DNA from: Planktotalea arctica
GTDB lineage: Bacteria > Pseudomonadota > Alphaproteobacteria > Rhodobacterales > Rhodobacteraceae
DNA length: 64,000 bases
Assembly: GCF_002105285.1 (NCBI RefSeq)
Contig: NZ_MUHR01000011.1
Location: 62,001 to 126,000, forward strand
Direction of reading: 5' to 3'
The notes beneath the pieces are model-generated. The model worked only from the letters and a program-made list of their open reading frames with translations, ran no database searches and was not told the origin of the DNA. Shown in pieces: positions 37,602-40,383 of the stretch (positions within the stretch are counted from its first letter, which is position 1; the number at the start of each line of letters is the position of its first letter). The position numbers and the translations under genes are program-made.

Positions 37602-37622
37602 CCCATTCTAGGAGATATGAAA

Positions 37623-38498
37623 ATGGCAATCACAGCAGCCATGGTTAAAGAACTGCGCGACACATCCGGCGCAGGCATGATGGACGCCAAGAAGGCGCTT
37701 ACAGAAACAGCAGGCGACATGGAGGCAGCAATCGATTGGCTGCGCACCAAGGGCCTTGCGAAAGCTGCCAAAAAATCCGGCCGTACAGCCGCAGAGGGCC
37801 TTGTTGCTGTCGCGGTGACCGGCGGCAAAGGCGTTGCGGTTGAAGTGAATTCCGAGACGGATTTCGTTGGCAAGAACGCTGAATTTCAAGAGATGGTCGG
37901 CGGAATCGCTGCGACTGCAATGGGCGTTTCCGACGTTGAAGCGCTGGCCGCTGCAGACATGGGCGGCAAATCTGTCGCTGACGTGTTGAACGCCAAGATC
38001 GCGACAATCGGCGAGAACATGTCCCTGCGCCGTATGGCCGTTGTCGAGAGCACGTCCGTCGTGTCCTACGTGCACAACGCCGTCACAGGCGGCATGGGCA
38101 AGATTGGTGTTCTGGTCGGCCTGTCCGGCGAGAACGAGGCATTCGGCAAGCAGGTTGCGATGCACATCGCCGCTGCAAACCCCGTGTCTTTGTCCGAAGC
38201 CGATCTGGACCCGGCCGTTGTCGAAAAAGAGAAGCAAGTGCAGATGGATATCGCCCGCGAGTCCGGTAAGCCCGAGCAAGTGATCGAAAAGATGATCGTC
38301 GGCCGTATGAAGAAATACATGTCCGAAGTCACGCTTTTGGGTCAGGCGTTTGTTGTGAATCCAGATCTGACCGTTGGCGAAGCGGCGAAAGAAGCGGGCG
38401 TTGAAATCACCGGCTTCCATCGCCTTGAAGTCGGCGAAGGCATCGAAAAGAAAACAGAAGATTTCGCAGCCGAGGTTGCGAAAACAATGAAGGGCTAA
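37623..38498 (+). CDS. tsf: translation elongation factor Ts
   Basis: EF-Ts recycles EF-Tu by nucleotide exchange. The 291-residue protein has an N-terminal UBA-like domain ([19 protein letters not shown]), the ETDFVGKN motif whose Asp-Phe pair contacts EF-Tu, and the C-terminal dimer module. ATG 37623 ([11 protein letters not shown]) is 8 bases after GGAG, whereas ATG 37617 is only 2 bases away. It is followed by a strong terminator. Confidence 0.96.
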
Positions 38499-38522
38499 GG
38501 CGCTTTCATTGCTTCAGTGATT

Positions 38523-38561
38523 AGGCCGCTGTGTGATTTGGTTCGCGCAGCGGCCTTTTTT
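38523..38561 (+). terminator. tsf terminator
   Basis: AGGCCGCTG and CAGCGGCCT form a 9-bp stem with a 16-base loop, followed by an uninterrupted T-tract. Confidence 0.85.
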
Positions 38562-38704
38562 GTCCTTGAGGGAACGAAAGGGCCGTGGAGATATCGTGTG
38601 CGCCTCGACGGGTTACGCGAAAAGTCCAGGACTTGATATCTAATTTCTCTCCAAAGCAGTGGTTCTGACCGGTCACTGTTCCGCACGCTCTGCCGATTAA
38701 AACG

Positions 38705-38880
38705 AAAAAGGCGACGTACCCCGAGGGGGGAACGCCGCCAAAGAAGATCGCCAGCCCGAACATTGGGGATGAGGCAGGCTCGCGATACACACCGGTCAGG
38801 CGGTGAACTATACACCGCCCGAACCGGCACCGGATTGCTCCGGTAGAAGGATGTCATGGCCTTGAAATCACAAGGTTAAC
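38705..38880 (-). ncRNA. candidate structured small RNA with intrinsic terminator
   Basis: On the minus strand a chain of hairpins runs leftward: CCTTG-TGATTT-CAAGG (38860-38875), ACCGG-AGCAAT-CCGGT (38829-38844) and GGCGGTG-TATAGTT-CACCGCC (38799-38819) extended by CCGGT/ACCGG. It ends in a terminator, a 13-bp near-perfect stem GGCGGCGTTCCCC/GGGGTACGTCGCC (38710-38739) followed by TTTTT. Minus-strand frames cross it but run straight through the hairpins and resemble nothing known. The 5' end is not defined. It could also be a long 3' UTR of luxR, whose stop is at 39188. Confidence 0.5.
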
Positions 38881-39187
38881 TTCCAAAGTTCCTAGGCTAA
38901 AGCCACCACTCACGGAACCCGTTTACTATGCGTCACTTTGAAGTTGAGAAAAAGTAAAGGATTCCATACCTTTCTAGTTTTCACGGTAAATTCACGCTAG
39001 CGATGATCCGCAGGATTAGCGTCAAAATCTGCAAGTTCGAACCGGCTAAAACATCAACAAATTAGCCCACTTTCGAGCGCCGGCTAAGCACAAAGGAAAT
39101 TAACGCTGGCCGTCTGGCGGCAAAATCCGGCCAGTGCCAAGCAAATTTTCTGTAGATTTGTGTGAAGTGAACGCGTGCGCTGGCGCG
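38881..39187. other. gene-free, AT-richer stretch with inverted repeats
   Basis: About 300 bases between the candidate RNA and the luxR stop hold no credible gene. They carry AAAGG-ATTCCATA-CCTTT, ACGCTA/TAGCGT with an inner ATCC-GCA-GGAT (about 38995-39023), and CTGGCCG/CGGCCAG with a 15-base loop (39107-39135). The last could be a weak luxR terminator. Base composition is visibly richer in A and T than the flanking genes. Confidence 0.4.
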
Positions 39188-39949
39188 TCATAGCCCATCG
39201 ACGATAAACATCTGATTCTGGAACGAAGCCTTTAGAACTGCCTGCGCCGTCGTTTCCACGCTCAAGGCCTCGCGCGCGAGGCGCAGATGCTTTTCAACCG
39301 TCGCAGCCGTCAGCCCCATCAACAGCGCAATGTCCTGCGTGGTCTTGCCATCGCCAACCCATTCAAGCGCCTCGCGCTGGCGCTTGGTCAACGAGCGGCC
39401 TTCGGTCTGCTGGGGCAGGGTGACGATCTTCAGATGCGCCACATTGTTCATCACCACGATATCACTGCCATGCTCGGCCCAGATCGCATCGACCTCGTCC
39501 TGGCTCATACCTTTGCGCGCAGTCAGCGCAATCGCGCCTTTTGAGCGCGATGTAATCGCCTTAAAACTGATCGAATAGCCCGCCGTCACGCCGTGCATCT
39601 GATTGATCTCGATGATGTGTTTTTCGCGCTCCGTCAACGTTCCGCGCGCCATTTCGTCCCAAAGGTAACGCCAGGAACAGGCTCCAACATTATGCAGCGC
39701 CCAACGCACCATAGGCGCATCGCGATAGAGGTTGTTGCCCATGAAAAGCTGCATATAGGCGGGGTCATGATTGGTCAGCAAAACGAAGTCCGCAGGATCG
39801 CCCATGGAGGTTTCGGACATGTAATGGGAAAATCCGTAGATGATGCGGTCAAAGCCGTATTCGGCCATTTTCTCGCAGTGCAATCGCCACAGAACTTCCG
39901 CCGTTGGCGCGCCCGTCAAGGTTTCAAGAAATCTGCGCAGCTCGCTCAT
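39188..39949 (-). CDS. LuxR-family regulator with autoinducer-binding domain (solo)
   Basis: This 253-residue protein has an N-terminal autoinducer-binding type domain (about 15-165: [37 protein letters not shown]) and a C-terminal LuxR helix-turn-helix (about 183-240: [41 protein letters not shown]). No luxI-type synthase gene lies in this window, so it is a solo here. The start overlaps the aroQ stop by 4 bases (ATGA). The signal and targets are unknown. Confidence 0.9.
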
Positions 39950-40383
39950 ACAGCCGCGTGCAAATGCGCATGCAGCGCATCAAGCGCAAGCAGATAGCCC
40001 AACGCGCCAAAGCCCGCAATTTGCCCTAGCGCAACAGGCGCGATGTAGGAATGGTGGCGAAAGCTCTCGCGCGCATGGATATTGCTAAGGTGCACCTCAA
40101 CGCAGGGCAGCTCGATCGAGGCAAGCGCGTCATGCAGCGCCACAGAAGTATGCGTATAAGCGCCTGCATTCAGGATGATACCGTCTTGCGCGCCCTTGGC
40201 GGCGTGGATCGCATCGATCAACGCGCCTTCATGATTTGATTGAAGGAACGCTAGCGCGCTCGAGGGCGCGTGAGCGGTACACATGATTTCGATATCTTGC
40301 AACGTCGTCGCTCCGTAAACCTCCGGCTGACGCGTGCCCAGCAGGTTGAGATTGGGACCGTTAAGGATAAGAATGCGTGCCAT
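39946..40383 (-). CDS. aroQ: type II 3-dehydroquinate dehydratase
   Basis: AroQ dehydrates 3-dehydroquinate in the shikimate pathway. The 145-residue protein begins [24 protein letters not shown] with the catalytic Tyr in the lid, and has [29 protein letters not shown] and [12 protein letters not shown]. It is the first gene of a two-gene unit with luxR. Confidence 0.96.

Follow-up and report, generated by a model that had tools for sequence, protein, structure and literature searches.

A candidate small RNA gene next to a LuxR-type regulator in Planktotalea arctica and its conservation in the Rhodobacteraceae

GacA/UvrY boxes are dyads of the GTAAG-N6-CTTAC type that lie upstream of small RNAs (sRNAs) of the RsmY/RsmZ/CsrB type. 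Vibrio Qrr1-5 and Staphylococcus RNAIII are also sRNAs driven by a signalling regulator, and RNAIII uses C-rich loops against ribosome-binding sites. Two sRNAs of the Rhodobacteraceae are relevant here. One is trans54, which is given as 207 nt in an experimental sRNA list of Ruegeria pomeroyi (Rivers et al. 2016, PMC4809877). The other is sRNA-29 of Paracoccus denitrificans, which is described as an 84-nt RNA, antisense to a transporter gene and conserved in Rhodobacteraceae (PMC6686037).

The window analyzed in this work is a stretch of 64,000 nucleotides from Planktotalea arctica (contig NZ_MUHR01000011.1). It contains a gap of 689 bases between tsf, which ends at 38498 on the plus strand, and luxR, which ends at 39188 on the minus strand. 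The best overall explanation of the gap, and in our opinion a fairly probable one, is that it holds an autonomous, Rhodobacteraceae-wide sRNA gene that is activated by LuxR and whose product may act in trans. The features of the locus are listed in Table 1.

Table 1. Coordinates of the genes and of the predicted elements of the tsf-luxR locus
Feature	Positions in the window	Strand	Description
tsf (EF-Ts)	37617..38498	plus	convergent neighbour; Pfam
Predicted tsf terminator	38523-38556	plus	terminator scan
Intrinsic terminator of the RNA	38705..38739	minus	stem 38739-38710, 8 + 4 pairs, U/U mismatch; T5 at 38709-38705; from the fold
H5	38747..38786	minus	presents a C-rich loop; AUCCCC at 38770-38765
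H4	38791..38828	minus	long hairpin with UAU... loop; GGCGGTG/CACCGCC + CCGGT/ACCGG stem
H3	38829..38844	minus	small ACCGGA/UCCGGU hairpin; from the fold of the window
H2	38849..38884	minus	two-tier stem, loop NRAUWW
H1, 5' hairpin	38888..38918	minus	31 nt; GUUCCGUGAGUGGU-GGC...GCC-NN-GGAAC; unpaired GUGAGUGGU invariant
Small RNA gene	38705..38918	minus	214 nt; start (G of GTTCC) inferred from the spacing to -10; includes the whole T run
-10 element CATAGT	38925..38930	minus	pattern CANNNT; A at -11 in 82/82 and T at -7 in 78/82 homologs
Promoter dyad GGTATGGAATCCTTTACTTT	38951..38970	minus	proposed LuxR site; centre near -43.5
luxR-type regulator	39188..39949	minus	Autoind_bind and GerE (Pfam); RNA downstream on the same strand; proposed activator
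aroQ, type II dehydroquinase	39946..40383	minus	Pfam; 4-base overlap with luxR

The locus resembles the GacA/UvrY-RsmY/RsmZ/CsrB systems in having a GerE-domain regulator, an upstream dyad and a structured sRNA that ends in a terminator. Here, however, the neighbour is a LuxR protein with an autoinducer-binding domain and not a response regulator. The RNA also differs from CsrA-sponge RNAs: no GGA was found in the hairpin loops predicted for the window RNA, and thus it carries no sponge signature. It shares C-rich loops with RNAIII, but it has no Rfam relation to Qrr1-5 or RNAIII and its putative regulator is different. Two Ruegeria homologs measure 197-200 nt up to the T run, which is similar to the size given for trans54; size alone makes the identity of the two RNAs only a lead. 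The RNA sRNA-29 shares the conservation in Rhodobacteraceae but differs in locus, in its 84-nt length and in its antisense position. An activator-controlled sRNA is a known kind of system; what would be new is an RNA family that Rfam does not contain and that is linked with a LuxR solo. A search of Rfam 15 at gathering cut-offs returned no member in the window or in 20 homologous loci, and no published description of the RNA was found among open-licence PMC papers.

The predicted tsf terminator precedes the 3' end of the RNA, so that a cis effect on the tsf transcript does not readily suggest itself. The 4-base overlap of aroQ and luxR indicates that these two genes are probably co-transcribed. 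Judging by LuxR, the nearest named relatives are Rhodobacteraceae bacterium HTCC2083 and Planktotalea frisia. Among 29 loci compared for synteny (L036-L064), tsf is present in 27 and luxR is also present in 27.

The minimum-energy structure of a single sequence predicts an RNA of about 214 nt with five hairpins (H1-H5) and a terminator. An earlier sequence-only reading had noticed several stable hairpins and a terminator-like GC-rich stem followed by TTTTT on the minus strand at 38705-38880. This was confirmed: the minus strand of 38696-38890 folds with -91.4 kcal/mol (z -7.4), and none of 200 shuffled sequences was equally stable. The 218 nt from 38918 to 38701 on the minus strand gave z -5.3, again with 0/200 equally stable shuffles. 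The plus strand has a stable fold as well, weaker than that of the minus strand (z -4.7). The span that was proposed does not reach far enough in the 5' direction: it omits the best-conserved hairpin H1 (from 38918) and the whole promoter, from the dyad to the -10 element (38925-38970). The terminator was thought to have 13 bp and actually has 12 pairs, 8 and 4 around the mismatch; the GGCGGTG/CACCGCC stem with its CCGGT/ACCGG extension, which had been assigned to it, belongs to H4. The simple terminator scan does not list the terminator of the RNA. According to the alignment, H3 is missing in some relatives.

When 221 bases were used as a DNA query, three of the five other genomes of the genus contained the stretch, and no match was obtained in 55 further relatives beyond it. 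A query of 291 bases that included the upstream part matched 136 of 295 genera of the family. Most of these matches cover 31 bases at 38918-38888, i.e., beyond the span of the sequence-only reading, and a few short ones lie elsewhere in the query. Loci with the conserved core were extracted (101 in total), and 82 of them were kept after a redundancy filter. Conservation begins at 38918. We built a covariance model, R1, of the first 74 positions of the RNA; its match in the window spans 38846-38918. R1 matches 178 of the 295 Rhodobacteraceae genera, mostly with a single copy per genome, and in a class-wide sample it matches only three of 289 genomes, all of which are members of Rhodobacteraceae. 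The number of 178 RNA-positive genera is a lower bound, because several R1-negative and luxR-positive genomes (G084, G077, G190) carry the dyad and then a diverged GTTCC-type start.

In the promoter numbering, +1 is the G of GTTCC. The two nearly invariant bases listed in Table 1, A at -11 and T at -7, occupy the key positions of a -10 element. The region from -52 to -32, GGTAAGGAATCCCTTACTTTC, contains a dyad of the form GTAnGG-N4-CCnTAC that takes the place of a -35 box. Conservation reaches 83% or more at twelve dyad positions among the 82 homologs, and the pattern GTAnGGA-N6..8-ACT occurs with at most two mismatches in all of them. In the genome of the window, the form GGTANGGAWTNNNNNACTTT with at most one mismatch is found in a single place. 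When second sites were sought with a looser pattern in 12 genomes, only background numbers were obtained; second dyads in G121 and G135 were rejected, as both fall within the coding region of apparently one and the same gene and reflect protein homology. Class II activators bind around -42 and overlap the -35 region, and the centre of the dyad, about -43.5 from the inferred start, agrees with this geometry. A weaker second dyad, TNAC-N5-GTNAA, recurs with about half conservation in the homolog promoters at -30 to -17 (about 38948-38935 in the window), i.e., between the first dyad and the -10 element; perhaps it is a site for a repressor or for a second activator.

Thus the locus has the predicted composition of an autonomous intergenic sRNA gene, in which a structured non-coding RNA is flanked by its own promoter and an intrinsic terminator. 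This promoter would direct minus-strand transcription that starts near 38918 and ends at 38705. The small-RNA interpretation of the sequence-only reading is supported by the fold, by covariation (see below) and by the promoter signature, all of which are evidence from sequence.

The neighbouring LuxR-type regulator is most likely the activator of the RNA. We name it mainly because the loss of the dyad is replicated across lineages that lack luxR. With orthologs accepted at E up to 1e-45, 173 of the 178 genera with the RNA have luxR versus 35 of 117 RNA-negative ones, a co-occurrence whose P values are inflated by shared ancestry. The five RNA-positive genera without an ortholog (G029, G134, G147, G246, and G252) are the most informative. 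In four of them no related protein was detected even at E 1e-5, and G147 offers no more than a 31% relative, plus a weaker one elsewhere. The start of the RNA is recognizable in these genera, while the dyad is present in none of the five, the best match having 3-4 mismatches, as in shuffled sequence. In comparison, all 88 examined RNA-positive promoters from genomes with luxR have the dyad. On the EF-Ts tree the five losses correspond to five changes, at least four of which are forced by well-supported branches. The dyad also stays in place, with 0-2 mismatches, in seven of seven special cases: luxR is at a distance of 12.7 kb or on a different contig in G317, G085, and G142, and in G262, G098, G153, and G143 luxR is strongly diverged or the RNA score is weak. 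In the three genera where luxR has moved (loci L230/L231 in G317, L234/L235 in G142, and L232/L233 in G085), the RNA is still beside tsf. The link to luxR suspected in the sequence-only reading is thereby strengthened, as relatives conserve the locus next to luxR, and the dyad of the promoter is gone where luxR has been lost. The LuxR-type protein would bind the dyad and recruit RNA polymerase to a promoter that seems to have no -35 box.

The dyad could instead bind another GerE-type regulator that was lost together with luxR. The sRNA gene would then be genuine, and luxR would be a neighbour sharing its fate. The GTAnG-N6-CnTAC half-site arrangement resembles the geometry of GacA/UvrY boxes, so that any GerE-type regulator may be considered. 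In addition, three (G255, G097, and G283) of the nine luxR-positive, R1-negative genomes that were fetched have no dyad near luxR; hence LuxR can exist there without this target. We nevertheless regard a different regulator as unlikely, since the dyad was lost in five of five luxR losses on separate branches and was retained where luxR had moved.

A further alternative is that the RNA is a processed or read-through 3' UTR of the luxR mRNA and has no promoter of its own, as the sequence-only reading also suggested. The RNA does lie downstream of luxR on the same strand, and the arrangement is syntenic in most loci. This explanation is very improbable in view of the promoter signature at a fixed spacing and of the retention of the RNA in five genera without luxR and in three with luxR 12.7 kb off or on another contig.

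Activation by LuxR thus being the preferred reading, we turn to the RNA itself, which, as comparison of homologs demonstrates, is a structured RNA under selection. Covariation, a check proposed in the sequence-only reading, was assessed in 28 rows chosen from the 101 extracted loci for similar or equal spacer lengths. Folds of single sequences served to draw up the consensus structure by hand; RNAalifold did not recover it from the plain sequence alignment. The structure of H1 and H2 pairs 90.5% of cells in these rows versus a shuffled mean of 80.5%. Changes on both sides are seen in 11 of 20 H1-H2 pairs, a covariation score reached by none of 500 shuffles, and the signal is destroyed if partners are shifted by 1 to 3 columns. 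The both-side changes are confined to H2 (11 of its 12 pairs), whose helices therefore covary. H1 has none because it is too invariant: both of its stems are kept in 28/28 rows, and its two variable pairs alternate only between U-A and U-G. H4 was located in 69 of 81 homologs, where its eight innermost pairs are 91.7% paired versus 49.6% with arms swapped between species, and H5 is 76.2% paired versus 47.6% with swapped arms in 61 homologs; these percentages are raised by construction, as the hairpins were located by folding, and stronger evidence comes from how diverse the pair types are.

The family ar7 (RF02342) of alphaproteobacterial sRNAs is similar to our RNA in its multi-hairpin architecture, length, C-rich loops, and terminator, and a full-length sub-threshold match to it covers 38705-38845 (23.9 bits, E 0.014). 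Distant membership in ar7 is scarcely credible and was rejected: the score is far from the gathering score of 60, the match omits the conserved 5' hairpins, ar7 is found without this 5' hairpin and this locus, none of 100 genomes of the family reaches the cut-off, and in 18 genomes compared ar7 matches never occur within 5 kb of the RNA (0/18). Separately, three overlapping sub-threshold ar7 matches with a spacing of about 88 bases lie in L005 (G124:C1:21540-21854), the best with 41 bits, the top score in the family sample; possibly they are tandem copies of an ar7-like RNA.

Equally hard to believe is a small protein encoded by the conserved piece from the GTG of GUGAGUGG, a possible start codon within a context in which GTGAGTGGTGGC is identical in 27 of 28 alignment rows: the stems covary, and in 81 homologs the frame from the conserved GTG (+6) ends at scattered places and varies from about 5 to more than 80 codons, so this candidate was also rejected. 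The claim that the gap has no protein signal holds in that the homologs speak against a conserved frame, and needs amending in that two mechanical minus-strand ORFs, 38495-38857 (120 codons) and 38521-38790 (89 codons), cross the RNA; they could mislead gene callers.

The LuxR protein has an autoinducer-binding domain (PF03472) and a GerE domain (PF00196), both above cut-off. The pocket residues of AHL receptors are given as W57, Y61, D70, P71, W85, and G113 (PMC11655674). In an alignment with RhlR, the pocket of the present protein departs from this set: D70 is replaced with Ala78, which is invariant in 13 of 13 LuxR orthologs, and Y61 with Phe69, while P79 and W93 are retained. The DNA-binding domain of the orthologs is almost invariant. 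AHL synthase genes above cut-off were found in 38 of 40 RNA-positive genomes; the genome of the window has two, neither adjoining this luxR. LuxR may respond to another ligand, or to none, and the quorum link proposed in the sequence-only reading is therefore, in the strict AHL sense, no more than a possibility.

As for the function of the RNA, 71 of 81 homologs contain AUCCCC somewhere from +100 to +230, with a shuffle expectation of 3.4. From the loop, antisense pairing with purine-rich ribosome-binding sites may be guessed. The RNA would then act in trans, its C-rich H5 loop pairing with GGGGAU at ribosome-binding sites and blocking translation. The invariant GUGAGUGGU of H1 might, again as a guess, be a second contact site for RNA or protein. 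Exact complements of the H1 motif GUGAGUGGUGGC in 16 genomes revealed no shared target gene; there were 18 such places besides the RNA gene, 15 of them were compared, and two weak protein similarities appeared elsewhere in the loci.

A broader view, which is conceivable but doubtful, is that most Rhodobacteraceae have a module of one regulator and one sRNA, in which a LuxR solo with a reshaped pocket perceives a non-AHL ligand and the RNA is its whole output, possibly directed towards translation. The LuxR solo would drive a single promoter, and the output would pass through the unpaired GUGAGUGGU of H1 and the AUCCCC loop. Roseobacters abound in the sea and carry numerous LuxR solos whose output is not known. 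A widely kept LuxR solo now gains a concrete candidate target promoter and an RNA product, from a family outside Rfam 15 in 178 of 295 sampled genera, and the RNA is usable for deletion, for overexpression and as a reporter for the ligand of LuxR.

Two R1 matches in one genome are listed only for G269 and G306; each of these genomes has two luxR matches as well, a pattern that would be consistent with duplication of the pair.
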